From: Streptacidiphilus sp. ASG 303
GTDB taxonomy: Bacteria > Actinomycetota > Actinomycetes > Streptomycetales > Streptomycetaceae
Direction: 5' to 3'
Assembly: GCF_020991365.1 (NCBI RefSeq)
Contig: NZ_JAJLRA010000004.1
Coordinates: forward strand, 1 to 64,000
Length of the DNA: 64,000 nucleotides
The first letter of the stretch is position 1, and the number at the start of each line of letters is the position of its first letter. Below the pieces are notes generated by a model. It did not search any database. It saw only the letters and a program-made list of their open reading frames with translations, and was not told the DNA's origin. Shown piece by piece: positions 3,726-12,304 of this stretch. Made by a program: the position numbers and the translations under genes.

Positions 3726-5042
3726 ATGACAAGGAATGGCGGACGTGTGGACGGTGTGCGGAAGAGCCGCATGCGGCTGCTGCTGCAGGCTGCCGAGGCG
3801 TTCGTCGGCGCCGCCGGCGTGGCGGACGTCCGCCGCCGCGTACGCGACCTCGTCCTGAACGACCTGAAGCCCGTCTACGTGGGACTGAGCCTCCTGGAGC
3901 ACCGCGGCAACGGGCACCGTCCGGGGCCGGCGGCCCGCCGGATCCTGGACCCGGAGATCGACGTCCAGATGGAGACGCGCTACCGCACGTACACCGTCAT
4001 GGACGAGTGGCCCACCGCCCGGGCCCTGAGAGAGCGCCGGATCGTCACCGTGACCAGCCGCGAGGAGCTCGCGGAGTCCTACGGCGAGCAGGCGCTGGAC
4101 GTCTGGGACACCCTGGGGTTCGCGTCCCTGGCCGCGATTCCGCTGGAAGGGACGCAGGGCGCGATCGGCGCGCTGATCATCGCCTGGGGCGAGGTGCACG
4201 AGCTCGACCCCGACGAACGCGCCGTCCTGAAGGCCGTCGCCCAGTACACGGCCCTGGCCACCGAGCGGGCGCTCCGTCTCGACGACCGCACCAGCGTGGC
4301 CCACGGCCTGCAGAAGGCCCTGCTGACGTCCGTCCCCGACGTCCCCGGCCTCGACCTGGCCGCGCTCTACCAGCCGGCCGCCGCCTTCGACCTGGTCGGA
4401 GGGGACTGGTACGACGCCTACCGGCTGCCGGTGGAAGCACCGGACGGGCCGCCGCGGCTCGCCGTCACGGTCGGCGACATCACGGGTCACAACACCCGGG
4501 CCGCGGCCATCATGGGACAGGCCCGGAGCATGCTGCGCCAGGCCGACATCGACCACCTCCACCGGGGGCCCGCCCACGCCGTCACCGCACTGGAACGGGC
4601 GTGCAACGTCCTCTCCCTGCCCGCCACGGGCACCCTGGTCCACGCCCACCTGACCCGGGCCGACGAGGGCTGGGAGCTGCGCTGGAGCAACGCCGGCCAC
4701 CCGCCGCCGCTCCTCGCCGTGCCCGGCCGTGCCGTGGAGGTCCTGCACCCGCACGACCGCCTGCTCCTGCCCGACCTGCCGTGCGGGCAGCGGACCGAGC
4801 ACCGCACGGCACTTCCGCCCGGCGCGACGCTCCTGCTGTACACCGACGGCCTGGTGGAACGCCGCTCGCGCGCGCTGGACTCCTCCATCGAGGCGACCGG
4901 GCGGCTGCTGCAGCAGCACGTGGCGGCCGGCGCGCCCCTGCACGACGTCCTGCGCGACCTGCACCGGCGGATCGCCGTGGACCCCAACGAGGACGACGTC
5001 GCCCTGCTGGCCGTCCGGGTCCGGCACGGGGCTGCGCCGTGA
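3726..5042 (+). CDS. GAF-SpoIIE family PP2C phosphatase
   Basis: The 438-residue cytoplasmic protein has an N-terminal GAF-like sensor (about 20-190) and a SpoIIE/RsbU-type PP2C phosphatase domain (about 195-435). The metal-binding motifs GGDWYD (225-230) and VGDITGH (249-255) are present, as are NAGHPPPLL, LLLYTDGLVERR and a C-terminal EDDVALLAVRV. In this family the enzyme removes phosphate from STAS-domain anti-anti-sigma factors and so frees an alternative sigma factor, with the GAF domain tuning activity. No partner sigma or anti-sigma gene is adjacent. The start is uncertain: ATG 3726 has AAGGG close by, while GTG 3747 lies 12 bp after AAGGA. Confidence 0.9.
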   Translation: MTRNGGRVDGVRKSRMRLLLQAAEAFVGAAGVADVRRRVRDLVLNDLKPVYVGLSLLEHRGNGHRPGPAARRILDPEIDVQMETRYRTYTVMDEWPTARALRERRIVTVTSREELAESYGEQALDVWDTLGFASLAAIPLEGTQGAIGALIIAWGEVHELDPDERAVLKAVAQYTALATERALRLDDRTSVAHGLQKALLTSVPDVPGLDLAALYQPAAAFDLVGGDWYDAYRLPVEAPDGPPRLAVTVGDITGHNTRAAAIMGQARSMLRQADIDHLHRGPAHAVTALERACNVLSLPATGTLVHAHLTRADEGWELRWSNAGHPPPLLAVPGRAVEVLHPHDRLLLPDLPCGQRTEHRTALPPGATLLLYTDGLVERRSRALDSSIEATGRLLQQHVAAGAPLHDVLRDLHRRIAVDPNEDDVALLAVRVRHGAAP

Positions 5043-5163: not shown

Positions 5164-5718
5164 ATGACCGAACCCATCGAACTGGTGATCTTCGACTGCG
5201 ACGGGGTGCTGGTCGACAGCGAACGCATCGCCCTGCGGGTCCAGGTCTCCCTGGGGGCGGAACCGGGTTGGCCGCTCACCGAGGACGACGTCGTCAGCCG
5301 CTTCATCGGGCGCTCCAGCGCCTCCATACGCGAGCAGGTCGCCGCCCGGCTCGGGCAGGGGACGGCCGCGCTCTGGTGGGAGCGGTTCGAGGAGCTGCAC
5401 CGGGAGGCGGTGGACACCGCCCTCTCCCCCGTCGACGGCCTGCCCGAGGCCCTTGACGCGATCACCCTGCCGACCTGCGTCGCCTCCAGCGGCTCCCACG
5501 CGAAGATGCGCCACACCCTGGGGCGCACCGGGCTCTACGAACGCTTCGCGGGACGCATCCACAGCGCCACCGAGGTCGCCCGCGGCAAACCGGCGCCCGA
5601 CCTGTTCCTGCACGCGGCCCGGCGGATGGGCGTGGCGCCCTCGGCATGCGCGGTGGTGGAGGACAGCGAGCCCGGCGTGCAGGCCGCCCGTGCGGCCTGG
5701 ATGCGGGCCTTCGGCTAA
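5164..5718 (+). CDS. HAD-family hydrolase, truncated by a nonsense codon
   Basis: The product resembles beta-phosphoglucomutase-like HAD phosphatases. It has nucleophile motif FDCDGV (Asp11 and Asp13), VDGLPEAL and VASSGS (motif II), the motif III lysine in RGKPAPDLF, and VVEDSEPGV (motif IV). Reading stops at TAA 5716-5718 after 184 residues. The same frame continues open from 5719 to TGA 5812-5814 and encodes AGGLTPAERLQGPGTVVF, which fits the usual C-terminal end of this family after FGY. A single TAC-to-TAA change at Tyr would explain the stop. All catalytic motifs lie before it, so a shortened protein could still fold, but loss of function is possible. Confidence 0.8.
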   Translation: MTEPIELVIFDCDGVLVDSERIALRVQVSLGAEPGWPLTEDDVVSRFIGRSSASIREQVAARLGQGTAALWWERFEELHREAVDTALSPVDGLPEALDAITLPTCVASSGSHAKMRHTLGRTGLYERFAGRIHSATEVARGKPAPDLFLHAARRMGVAPSACAVVEDSEPGVQAARAAWMRAFG

Positions 5719-8173: not shown

Positions 8174-9028
8174 ATGCGGATCGAGCTGGCGACCGAGGCG
8201 GGTTCGGCGGCGCGCGCCAACGAGGACTTCGTCCTGGCCGCGCCGGGGGCGTTCGTGGTGCTCGACGGGGTGACCCCCGGCCCGCGGGACCCGGGGTGCA
8301 CGCACGGGGTGGTCTGGTACGTGCGCAGCCTGGGCGTGCGGCTGCTGGCCGCGGCCGCCGGCGTCCCGGACCGTCCGCTGGCCGACTGCCTGGCGGACGC
8401 GGTCGCGGGCACGGCGGCGGCCCACGGCGGCGGCTGCGACCTGTCCGCGCCGGGGACGCCGCAGGCCACGGTGGCGGTGGGGCGGCTCGTGGGCGGCCGG
8501 TTCGAGTACCTGGTGCTCGCCGACTGCACGGTGGTGCTGGAGACCGGCGGCGGCCCGGTGGCCGTCACCGACGACCGGGTGGAGCGGGCGGCCCGCGGCC
8601 TGCGGCTGGCGGCGGCCGCGCTGCCGGAGGGGTCCGCCGAGCGGGCCGCCGCCCGCGAGCGGTACGCGGCCGCCGTGGAGGGGCTGCGCAACCGGCCCGG
8701 CGGGTTCTGGACGGCGGCGGCGGACCCGGCGGTGGCGGGCGAGGCGCTGACCGGGTCGGTCCCGGCGTCCGGGTTGCGGGCCGTGGCGGCGATGAGCGAC
8801 GGCGCGAGCCGGTTCGTGGACCTGCTGGGACTGGGCGACTGGTCGGACGTGATGCGGCTGCTGGCCTCGCACGGTCCCGCGGAGCTGCTGTCCCGGGTGC
8901 GGCGGGCCGAGGCCGGTGACCCGGAGCGGCGGCGCTGGCGGCGGGGCAAGGTCAGCGACGACGCGACGGTCGTGCACGCGGTGCCGGGGGCGTCGCCGGG
9001 GTTCCGGCGTCGCGGCGCCCCGGCATGA
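8174..9028 (+). CDS. PP2C-like protein phosphatase (cassette copy 1)
   Basis: The 284-residue protein has the spaced acidic motifs of PP2C-type metal-dependent phosphatases. These are ARANEDF, VVLDGV (metal-binding Asp and Gly), PQATVAVGRL, AAMSDGASRFVDLLGLGDW and KVSDDATVVHA near the C-terminus. It is about one third identical by eye to the gene at 11480-12304, sharing WYVR-LGV-LLA, LADA-A-TAA-HG--CDL and DLLGLG-W, so the two are paralogues that flank the cassette. ATG 8174 is preferred because it matches the paralogue's N-terminus and follows GGGA; ATG 8165 is also possible. The substrate is unknown. The location beside WXG100- and NlpC/P60-type genes suggests a link to their secretion or use. 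Confidence 0.82.
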   Translation: MRIELATEAGSAARANEDFVLAAPGAFVVLDGVTPGPRDPGCTHGVVWYVRSLGVRLLAAAAGVPDRPLADCLADAVAGTAAAHGGGCDLSAPGTPQATVAVGRLVGGRFEYLVLADCTVVLETGGGPVAVTDDRVERAARGLRLAAAALPEGSAERAAARERYAAAVEGLRNRPGGFWTAAADPAVAGEALTGSVPASGLRAVAAMSDGASRFVDLLGLGDWSDVMRLLASHGPAELLSRVRRAEAGDPERRRWRRGKVSDDATVVHAVPGASPGFRRRGAPA

Positions 9029-9129
9029 CGGTTCGTCAGCGGGGCCCCGTACCGGCCGTCGGAGTCCTGGACTAGGCTGCCGCGCGGACCTCCGCCAGGC
9101 CGGGGGACACGGGGAACGGGGAGACGGGC

Positions 9130-9456
9130 ATGAGTGACAGCGTCTGGGAGGACGTCGCCAGGGCCGGCAGGGCGGTCGTGATGGCGCCGGTGGAGATCGC
9201 CCACCTGGCACTGGAGGAGATGTTCGGCAGCGACGACGAGCTGCGCACGATCGCCGCCGAGCTGCGTGCGCTGGGGCGGGAGGTCGAGGAGCTGCGCCGG
9301 CGGATCGACGCGTCCGTCGGCCGGATCTCCTGGCACGGCAGGGCGGCCGACGCCTTCACCGAGCACGCCCGGGGGCGCATCCGCGACCTGGCCGCCGCGG
9401 CGGACGGCCTGGAGGCGCTGGGCGCCTCGGTCGGCCGCCTCGCCGACGCGGTCTGA
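9130..9456 (+). CDS. WXG100-like small protein
   Basis: This 108-residue, almost wholly helical protein carries SWHGRAADAF in its middle, matching the W-x-G turn of WXG100/Esx proteins. Amphipathic heptad-rich helices lie on both sides (ELRALGREVEELRRRID and IRDLAAAADGLEALG). WXG100 proteins are exported as helical-hairpin dimers by type VII (ESX) secretion. No EccC ATPase or other ESX core gene is in the window, so export would rely on a distant system. The N-terminal 30 residues are longer than in minimal Esx proteins. The start ATG follows GGGGAGACGGGC. It is followed by a 177-bp repeat-rich spacer and the NlpC/P60 gene in the same direction. Confidence 0.75.
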   Translation: MSDSVWEDVARAGRAVVMAPVEIAHLALEEMFGSDDELRTIAAELRALGREVEELRRRIDASVGRISWHGRAADAFTEHARGRIRDLAAAADGLEALGASVGRLADAV

Positions 9457-9566
9457 CACCGCGGCACACACGCCGCGGCACACACGCCGTGGCACACCCC
9501 GCGGCACACACGCCGCGGCGGGGCCTGACCGCAGGCACCTCGCCCGCAGGCACCTCGCCCGCAGGT
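9457..9566. repeat. Short GC-rich tandem repeats between cassette genes
   Basis: A 14-bp unit GCGGCACACACGCC recurs about four times with small changes from 9460 to 9520. A 15-bp unit GCAGGCACCTCGCCC is then repeated from 9530 to 9566. The spacer is non-coding. Confidence 0.65.
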
Positions 9567-9633
9567 GCGCCTCTGCAGCACCGCAGGCACGTTCCGGCAC
9601 CACCGGCAGCACATCCCAGGGGGACGGGAGCAC

Positions 9634-10677
9634 ATGGCCGACGACCGCTTCGGCGTCCAGTTGCACGAACTCGCCGCGCTGCGGCAGGAATGGCACTCCG
9701 CGAGTGAGCGGATGGCCGGGCTCTCCGAGCGGCTCGACGCCGTCCGGGCCGCCGTCACCCGGGCCGCTGCGGTCGACCTCGCCGCCGGCGCCCTGGGGGG
9801 CGTGGCGGGCATCGCCACGGCGTACCGGGTGCTGGAGGACGTCCGGGAGATCGAGAAGCGGGCGGAGGCGCTGGCCCGTACCCAGAAGCAGCTGACGGAG
9901 GAGCTGGCCGCCGACGCCGCCAAGCTCAAGGCCGTCGCGGACGAGTACGCCGCCGCGGACCGGCGGATCCACGAGGAGATGCGCAGGAAGCACCGCGGGG
10001 AGCACCACGTCCCCGCCCCGCCGAGGACCGGGACCGACCACGCGGGCGGGAGCGGCGGGCACGCGGGCGGGAGCGGCTCGGGCGGCGGCCACGCCGGGGG
10101 AGGCGCGGCCGGCAGTTCCGGGGCGGGTTCCGGCTCCGGGTCGTTCGACGGTCAGGGCGACGGGAAGTGGCGGACCGTCGGCAGCTGGGACGCCTGGTCC
10201 CCCGGGCGGCACCACACCACCAGGGGGGCGGGCGTCATCACCGGGCCGGACCTGTCCGGCCTGCCGGACGCGCGCCGGCAGGTCCTGGAGCGCGCCCTGG
10301 AGCGGATCAACCACCGCATCGGGTACAGCCAGTCCGCGACCACCAACGGGTACCGCGACGACTGCTCCGGCTTCGTCTCGGCCGCCTGGGGCCTGGAGCC
10401 GCCGGGCCTCAACACCTACGGGCTGATGGGCAGCGGCTGTGCGCACCCCATATCCAAGGACGAGCTGCGGCCCGGCGACGCGCTGATCGCCGGCGACCAC
10501 ACCGTCCTCTTCGGCGGCTGGGCCGACGCCGCGCACACGAAGTACATCGCCCTGGAGGACAACGGCTCGCAAGGCACGGTCTCGCACGTCATCCCCTACC
10601 CGTACTTCTCGGGCGACGCCGCCCACGAGCGGGCCATCGGCCACCCGTACGTGCCCTACCGCCGCAACGGCCTCTAG
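9634..10677 (+). CDS. Coiled-coil NlpC/P60-like hydrolase
   Basis: The 347-residue protein has three parts. An N-terminal alpha-helical, coiled-coil region (1-125; HELAALRQEW, REIEKRAEAL) resembles WXG/LXG-type heads. A Gly/Ser/His-rich linker follows (about 128-175), then a cysteine-peptidase-like domain (about 195-347). The latter has YRDDCSGFVSAAW with Cys244 and LRPGDALIAGDH with His289, the Cys and His of NlpC/P60 and CHAP-type amidases that cut peptidoglycan stem peptides. There is no signal peptide, which fits export by a type VII route with a WXG100 partner (inferred). ATG 9634 is preceded by GGGGGACGGGAG. It lies in a co-directional set with the WXG100-like gene and a lipoprotein gene. 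Confidence 0.8.
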   Translation: MADDRFGVQLHELAALRQEWHSASERMAGLSERLDAVRAAVTRAAAVDLAAGALGGVAGIATAYRVLEDVREIEKRAEALARTQKQLTEELAADAAKLKAVADEYAAADRRIHEEMRRKHRGEHHVPAPPRTGTDHAGGSGGHAGGSGSGGGHAGGGAAGSSGAGSGSGSFDGQGDGKWRTVGSWDAWSPGRHHTTRGAGVITGPDLSGLPDARRQVLERALERINHRIGYSQSATTNGYRDDCSGFVSAAWGLEPPGLNTYGLMGSGCAHPISKDELRPGDALIAGDHTVLFGGWADAAHTKYIALEDNGSQGTVSHVIPYPYFSGDAAHERAIGHPYVPYRRNGL

Positions 10678-10779
10678 GACCGGGACCGCCGGCGTCCGGA
10701 CCCACGTCCGGACCCCGGCCCCCGGTCTCCCGGCCCCCGGCCTCCCGGACCCCAGCCCCTCGGACAGGAGCCCTCCGCC

Positions 10780-11479
10780 ATGCCCCGCCCCCGCCTGCTC
10801 GCCGCGGCCGCCCTCACCGCGGCGCTGGCCGCGCTCACCTCCTGCAAGCCCGGCACCACCGGCACGGAGGCCTCCTCGGCCGCCCCGGCGCCCGCCGCCA
10901 CCGCCCCGGGAGCCGCCTCCACGCCGGAGGCGTCCCGCAGCGCGGGCGCACCGGCCGCCGACCCGTCGGCATCCGACCCGGGGACGGCCGACCCCTCGAC
11001 GGCAGACCCCGCGACGGCCGACCCGGCAGCGGGCGGCTCGTCCTCGGCCCCGGCCGACCTGCCGCTGGACCCCGAGCCCTCCGCCGACTGCGAGGCGCCG
11101 AAGCTCCCGGCGGGGCACCGGATGGTGCAGGTCGTCGGCGCGCCGGCCGCCGGGGTGCTGCGGGCCCGGACCGCCCGGTTCGCGTGCGACCCCAACGGCG
11201 GGGGCTTCGCGGGTGCGGGTCCCGCCGCCTCCTACCGCCTGGCGCCGGGCGCCGCGGTCGACCTCGCCGTCGGCGCCACGGGCCGCCGGCGGGTGACGCC
11301 GTCCGTCCTGGAGCGGCACGTCGGCGACTGCCTGCGGCACGTCCAGCCGGCCGCGCCCCTGTCCTGCTCGGGGGACGTCTACGAGCTCGCCCTGTCCCCC
11401 GCCGGCGCCGTCACCGCCGTCCGGGTGAGGGTGCGCGGAAACCCGCCGGCGGCGGGGCGTGCGGCGCCACACTGGTCGG
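10780..11479 (+). CDS. Lipoprotein of unknown function, 3' end unclear
   Basis: It starts with a lipoprotein signal (LTAALAALTSC, lipobox Cys22). A disordered Ala/Pro/Ser/Thr stretch with TADP repeats (about 25-90) and a small domain follow (from about residue 98). The domain has three cysteines (SADCEAP, FACDPNG, GDCLRH) and a further LSCSGDVYEL. The reading frame has no stop codon near the expected end and stays open through the next gene to about 12774, where its codon use is no longer gene-like. An out-of-frame TGA at 11426-11428 lies exactly where the domain seems to finish (GAVTAVR), so a one-base frameshift there is likely. The end coordinate given is therefore approximate. Confidence 0.65.
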
Positions 11480-12304
11480 GTGCAGGTGGAGATGGCGGGG
11501 GAACCGCAGCACCCGGGTCGGGAGAGCGAGGACTTCGCGGCGGCGACGCCGGAGGCGCTGGTCCTGCTGGACGGGTCGGGTCCGCCGGCGGGGGCGGAGT
11601 CCGGCTGCCGGCACGGGACGGCGTGGTACGTGCGGCGGCTGGGGGTGCACCTGCTGGCCCGGCTGACCGACCGGGCGGACCGCACCGCCGCGCAGTGCCT
11701 GGCCGACGCGATCGCGGAGACGGCCGCGCTGCACGGCGCCCGCTGCGACCTGGCGCACCCGGACACGCCCGCGGCGACGGTGGTGGCGGTGCGCCGCAGC
11801 GGCACGGCGCTGGAGTACGCCGTGCTGGGCGACTCGCTGCTGGTCCTCCACCCGCGGGCGGGCGAGCCCCGGGTCGTCGGGGGCGACCAGCCGTTCCCGG
11901 CGGGCGAGCTGCTGCGGCGGCAGGTGCGGGAGGCGGCGCCGGGGAGCCCGGAGCGGGCGGCGGCGCTCACGCGGTACGCCCTCGCGGTGCGGGCGGCCCG
12001 CAACAGCGGCCACGGCCCGTGGATCGCGGCCGCGCTGCCGCGGGCGGCGGAGCACGCCCGGACCGGCACGGTGCCGCTGGCGGGGCTGCGCGGCCTGGCG
12101 GCGCTGTCCGACGGGGCGGGCCGCTACGTGGACCTGCTGGGATTGGGCGGCTGGCCGGAGGCGCTGGCACTGATGGCGGGCTCCGGGCCGGGCGAGCTGC
12201 TGGCGCGGGTGCGGGCCGCGGAGGCGTCCGACCCCCGGTGCGAGCGGTGGCCGCGCGGCAAGGTCCGGGACGACGCGACGGCGGTGTACGCCCGGACGCC
12301 GTGA
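11480..12304 (+). CDS. PP2C-like protein phosphatase (cassette copy 2)
   Basis: The 274-residue paralogue of the gene at 8174-9028 has ESEDF, LVLLDGS, PAATVVAVRR, YAVLGDSLLVL, AALSDGAGRYVDLLGLGGW and KVRDDATAVYA, in the order of PP2C motifs. The first motif is SED rather than NED. GTG 11480 gives the best N-terminal match to copy 1; GTG 11486 is an alternative. It begins where the lipoprotein frame loses gene-like codon use. Both copies bracket the WXG100-like, NlpC/P60-like and lipoprotein genes in one orientation, suggesting a common job. Function is inferred only from motifs. Confidence 0.8.
   Translation: MQVEMAGEPQHPGRESEDFAAATPEALVLLDGSGPPAGAESGCRHGTAWYVRRLGVHLLARLTDRADRTAAQCLADAIAETAALHGARCDLAHPDTPAATVVAVRRSGTALEYAVLGDSLLVLHPRAGEPRVVGGDQPFPAGELLRRQVREAAPGSPERAAALTRYALAVRAARNSGHGPWIAAALPRAAEHARTGTVPLAGLRGLAALSDGAGRYVDLLGLGGWPEALALMAGSGPGELLARVRAAEASDPRCERWPRGKVRDDATAVYARTP

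Follow-up and report, generated by a model that had tools for sequence, protein, structure and literature searches.

Five genes and their question

Does a cluster in which two PP2C-type protein phosphatases flank three genes of secretion-like character encode one system or two unrelated ones? The question arises from a window of 64,000 nucleotides (the whole stretch analysed) from Streptacidiphilus sp. ASG 303, positions 1 to 64,000 of contig NZ_JAJLRA010000004.1. Five co-directional plus-strand open reading frames lie at 8174-12304, and all are present within about 4 kb at the positions given by an earlier note made from the letters of the sequence. That note had described a cassette of two phosphatases around a WXG100-like protein, an NlpC/P60-type hydrolase and a lipoprotein, and had suggested that phosphorylation controls type VII export or cargo activity. 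The genus of the window genome is a small group of three genomes that includes Peterkaempfera griseoplana and is not Streptomyces proper. The inner genes are called the module here.

The WXG100-fold partner

The second gene (9130..9456, + strand) encodes a 108-aa protein that is called a WXG100-fold protein and a divergent relative here because its sequence scores below the family cut-offs (22.3 of 27.3 bits for PF06013 and 17.9 of 44.85 for TIGR03930). Its AlphaFold model is a helical hairpin (residues 35-64 and 71-107, pLDDT near 90) that turns at W68-H69-G70; the WXG100-like character proposed for it is thus borne out by the modelled hairpin, but not by any family score. All 36 best Foldseek matches of the model are Esx/WXG100 proteins, the top PDB matches are of EsxA/EsxB type, and VIA comparison with M. 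abscessus EsxEF gave a Z of 11.3 and 1.3 Å over 74 residues. The protein also has a conserved N-terminal amphipathic stretch, VMAPxEIAHxxLxxMFG. Every NlpC/P60-class locus examined has a WXG100-like gene directly 5' of its hydrolase gene.

The head-bearing hydrolase

The third gene (9634..10677, + strand) encodes a 347-aa hydrolase of type VII secretion type with a head (residues 1-120), a Gly-rich linker (121-175) and a catalytic domain (176-347). The protein has no Pfam match over the cut-off, and the NlpC/P60 domain of its relatives also scores below it, at 19-21 of 23 bits. In the predicted structure the head consists of two long helices, modelled at moderate confidence (pLDDT about 47-71), the linker is disordered, and the C-terminal part is a confident NlpC/P60 domain with Z of about 10-12 to CwlO, RipA, RipB and RipD. 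The predicted catalytic residues C244, H289 and H301 (codons 10363-10365, 10498-10500 and 10534-10536 within 10363..10536, + strand) are invariant in the homologue alignment. The His-to-His spacing is 12 in 27 of 27 sequences matched, as is that between H432 and E444 of RipA, with residue numbers taken from structure titles. The predicted fold with its Cys-His-polar triad agrees with the NlpC/P60-type domain recognized before, although Pfam misses it in the window protein, and suggests cleavage of peptidoglycan stem peptides. Single-chain models, proposed earlier as a check, display both the WXG100 hairpin and the Cys-His catalytic site.

The head ends in a YxxxD/E motif, whose Tyr is invariant, in all 54 unique homologues; in the window this putative export signal is Y105-A-A-A-D109 (9946..9960, + strand). 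No signal-peptide-like start occurs in the heads tested, which supports the earlier statement that the hydrolase lacks one. Together, the WXG100-like protein and the hydrolase carry both halves of the composite signal, WxG and YxxxD/E, and the two proteins may pair. The idea that these two middle genes encode type VII cargo therefore gains support from the WXG100 fold, the motif in 54 of 54 heads and the gene adjacency, while export would be the step that these features predict. Mean identity over the same seven loci is 86% for the catalytic domain, 55% for the head, 58% for the WXG protein and 56% for LipA.

The head matched no Pfam family, PE and PPE included, and gave only scattered weak coiled-coil matches; LXG was absent from the matches listed for 20 heads (25 of 100 Pfam families). 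A profile search of PDB sequences gave coiled-coil noise for the most part, and its matches to NlpC/P60 structures reached only E 0.4-0.6. When the hydrolase model was compared with known folds, no WXG100 protein was among the matches listed for the head, a result that excludes nothing.

The NlpC/P60 gene of Streptomyces endophytica (L039:10001-11046) is frameshifted past the catalytic Cys region. Tandem NlpC/P60-class genes with differing catalytic domains follow a single WXG gene at L035:10001-12426 and L041:8752-11143.

The transglycosylase sister class and the lipoproteins

Two kinds of cargo occur on the 54 unique heads, NlpC/P60 on 33 and a transglycosylase-like SLT domain on 21, and no other cargo was seen among them. 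The SLT domain scores over the Pfam cut-off at one locus (L099) and more weakly in the others; its catalytic-Glu motif was found by pattern in 20 of 21 sequences and by eye in the remaining one. Most SLT-class copies (17/21) lack a WXG neighbour. When another head copy was read in the genome of an SLT-class copy, it was an NlpC/P60-class locus with a WXG gene, so it is possible that the two copies of one genome share a WXG partner. Both enzyme classes are present in P. griseoplana.

Each class also has its own lipoprotein. LipA (10780..about 11430, + strand, with the lipobox LTSC22 and 4 conserved extracellular Cys) adjoins the NlpC/P60 enzyme, downstream and co-directional or convergent, in 14/31 loci, and LipB, which belongs to another lipoprotein family, is the next gene after the SLT enzyme in 16 of the 21 SLT loci. 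Such class-specific downstream lipoproteins look like the second members of effector-immunity pairs. LipA is missing beside about half of the intact enzymes, even among species that share one chromosomal site, and its homologues occur elsewhere, both in genomes without the module and as orphans in genomes whose module has none. The lipoprotein gene recognized earlier in the window is indeed a lipobox-bearing frame, but it has lost its stop: relative to P. griseoplana (L026), a deletion at 11330-11490 took the last LipA codons, the stop and part of the spacer. The LipA frame consequently overlaps PP2Cb and runs on inside it to 12774. Near one orphan LipA homologue (L131:10215-11257, genome G119), a WXG-like 138-aa frame is followed by an RHS-repeat fragment.

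Distribution, genomic sites and ESX machinery

Searched for by its head domain, the family turned up in 32 of 200 Streptomycetaceae genomes, most of them belonging to one genus (g14). The head seems to be confined to part of the Streptomycetaceae because, in a class sample of 394 genomes, only the window's own genome matched. Judged by reading the sequences, the module lies beside uppS in one Streptomyces clade, and most Kitasatospora copies lie at one fixed site beside an HrpA-like helicase gene. S. pinistramenti and Actinacidiphila soli carry it at other sites, and at L028 the uppS-type neighbours are joined without the module, which lies elsewhere on the same contig. A phage or plasmid origin was considered and rejected: the tblastn matches listed cover only the catalytic domain (≤42% of the query) and lie on Streptomyces plasmids, one unannotated phage record matched, and the head is absent among the matches listed.

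ESX machinery lies away from the module in every module-bearing genome sampled. The window's own genome has three EccC copies over the cut-off, all encoded elsewhere, in keeping with the earlier observation that no such machinery is near. For the eccC correlation that had been proposed as a check, EccC exceeds the cut-off in 32/32 module-bearing genomes, which tests nothing because EccC is near-universal in the family (189/200).

The PP2C genes

The outer genes are paralogous PP2C-type phosphatases, as had been proposed. PP2Cb (11480/11486..12304, + strand) exceeds the cut-off of Pfam PF13672 (PP2C_2; 28.8 bits against 24), and PP2Ca (8174..9028, + strand), which has no Pfam match of its own, shares about 52% identity with it and the motifs NED/SED, LDG, SDG and DDAT.

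If all five genes were one system, in which cargo export or cargo activity depended on phosphorylation and the PP2Cs controlled it, the phosphatases should travel with the inner genes. Co-directional neighbours of this kind occur in the window and, in the same gene order, in P. griseoplana (G002). Among the flanked loci, PP2Cs and inner genes stand together in these two only; the conserved five-gene cassette expected earlier is thus absent. G001 belongs to the same genus, and there about 50 bp separate the two PP2C genes, which adjoin each other without an insert. In G005, of another genus, an 802-aa gene whose protein reads like a PAS-domain sensor splits the tandem (L130:4223-6631). When all flanked module loci were searched directly for PP2Ca and PP2Cb, only L026 gave a match. 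PP2Cb itself is widespread in the Streptomycetaceae, usually near pirin; in three other Streptomycetaceae regions read (L048, L049 and L136) it has pirin and an acyl-CoA dehydrogenase gene close by, and the module is absent. A CACACTGG-like element (11468..11475, + strand) stands a few bases 5' of the PP2Cb start. It is probably PP2Cb's own promoter because it is kept whether or not a genome has the module. PP2C control of the cargo, which the earlier note had suggested, was therefore rejected, since the PP2Cs form a tandem without the module in G001, are split by another gene in G005 and are absent near the module in the other flanked loci; a five-gene system is very improbable. By this comparison of gene order, the PP2C phosphatases stand outside the system and the five genes do not form a single cassette. 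Insertion of the module into an older PP2C tandem would be the simplest history because G001 and the outgroups are without the module, with loss in G001 as the alternative. The phosphatases would have no role in the module and should not be annotated with it.

What lies in the gap between the tandem PP2Cs differs between genera, the PAS-domain-like gene of G005 being one such insert.

Function of the module and alternative explanations

We lean, if only just, towards the view that this is an ESX-exported peptidoglycan-hydrolase module that probably remodels the wall of its own producer. While both are still in the cytoplasm, the WXG100 protein of 108 aa would pair with the helical head of the hydrolase, and the pair would present WxG and YxxxD/E to an ESX/EccC machine encoded elsewhere. 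After export, the NlpC/P60 domain on its Gly-rich tether would cut peptidoglycan stem peptides, and the sister class, which joins this type of head to a transglycosylase domain, could supply the glycan-cutting half. The target would most likely be the producer's own wall, for example in remodelling for the ESX machine, the growing hypha or the spore. The lipoprotein, bound to the surface, may regulate, anchor or protect its matching enzyme. ESX export is the best inference because of the composite signal, the presence of EccC in the genome, the need of the enzyme to reach the outside and the lack of a Sec signal. We favour an own-wall target for three reasons: the cargo of the head is confined to two wall hydrolases that complement each other, no part is better conserved than the catalytic domain, and LipA is dispensable. 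By contrast, a hydrolase that is no type VII substrate would act inside the cell or be released by lysis or in some other way, and the role of the WXG100 protein would lie elsewhere. Machinery that is not adjacent and the many SLT-class copies without a neighbouring WXG gene fit that reading, but the strict WXG adjacency of the NlpC/P60 class and the invariant YxxxD/E speak against it, and we know of no cytoplasmic substrate for a peptidoglycan hydrolase; we regard it as improbable.

The wall under attack could also be that of neighbours. The hydrolase would then be an antibacterial type VII effector and the lipoprotein a surface-anchored immunity protein, as TilA is for TslA. This reading, which we consider unlikely yet the main competitor, stays alive because the lipoproteins are class-specific, LipA being the next gene at 14 of the 31 NlpC/P60 loci and a different family at 16 of the 21 SLT loci. 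Orphan LipA homologues in genomes whose module has none would suit it, as would the precedent of lipoprotein immunity to a T7 toxin (PMC10730906) and the listing of NlpC/P60 as a polymorphic-toxin domain (PMC3482391). It is harder to reconcile with the intact enzymes that lack LipA, about half of the total, even at sites shared with LipA-bearing species, with LipA homologues in genomes that lack the module, and with the one fixed site of most Kitasatospora copies. The cargo, moreover, is limited to two wall hydrolases with an unusually conserved catalytic domain, whereas polymorphic toxins join one head to many unrelated toxin C-termini.

Likeness to known systems

The module resembles several systems without coinciding with any of them. 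The WxG and YxxxD/E composite signal is established for PE/PPE and Esx pairs, whose helical part may bear an enzyme domain on its C-terminal side (PMC7028111). These mycobacterial T7SSa heterodimers are also encoded by adjacent gene pairs with WxG on one helical partner and YxxxD/E on the other, but the module's head has no PE/PPE match, bears peptidoglycan hydrolases and occurs in Streptomycetaceae. LXG effectors with Lap partners (T7SSb) share a helical N-terminus, a small WXG100-like partner gene, a C-terminal enzyme and, in many cases, a neighbouring protective gene, a part that the lipoprotein gene could play here. The module differs in that no LXG is among the Pfam matches listed, its YxxxD/E lies on the enzyme head and not on a Lap, its cargo is limited to wall hydrolases and its background is actinobacterial T7SSa. 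The RipA, RipB and CwlO endopeptidases share the NlpC/P60 catalytic fold and Cys-His-polar triad; unlike the module hydrolase, they are Sec-type proteins with signal peptides, and to our knowledge they have no WXG partner.

Two Staphylococcus aureus systems are also relevant. TslA-TilA with TlaA1/TlaA2 combines a T7-secreted enzyme, small helical partners and a lipoprotein gene in one cassette, TilA being the lipoprotein immunity protein for the T7 lipase TslA (PMC10730906). TslA is, however, a lipase with reversed domain order, and the TlaA partners have no clear F/YxxxD/E motif. EssH (T7SSb) is likewise a wall hydrolase tied to type VII secretion, but it has a CHAP domain and is needed for EsaA assembly across the wall (PMC13059805). 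We know of no WXG partner for it.

Novelty and significance

The principle of a partner-encoded helical type VII substrate is already known. What appears to be undescribed so far is the head family, together with its coupling to wall hydrolases and its division into two enzyme classes: no description of the module was found in literature, mostly outside subscription journals, on type VII secretion with NlpC or cell wall hydrolases, Streptomyces and Kitasatospora. Belief and doubt are evenly balanced for us on the broader proposal of an undescribed Streptomycetaceae family of ESX substrates, in which a Pfam-less head delivers NlpC/P60 and SLT hydrolases, each with its own lipoprotein. We know of few larger ESX cargoes in streptomycetes, despite their near-universal ESX machinery. 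If the proposal is true, signal-bearing, partner-encoded wall hydrolases would be a concrete ESX cargo in filamentous bacteria, and ESX, whose role in filamentous actinobacteria is poorly understood, would act there as an exporter of wall-remodelling or wall-attacking enzymes. Such cargo would also be relevant to the way in which a type VII machine contends with a thick Gram-positive wall, as with EssH in S. aureus.

Other phosphatase-like genes in the window

Two further features lie 5' of the cluster. A 431-aa gene at 3747-5042, about 3 kb 5' of PP2Ca, reads as a GAF and SpoIIE/RsbU-type PP2C phosphatase-like gene, a further phosphatase unrelated to the module. A HAD-like phosphatase frame at 5164-5718 is shorter than expected for its family and is perhaps truncated or frameshifted.
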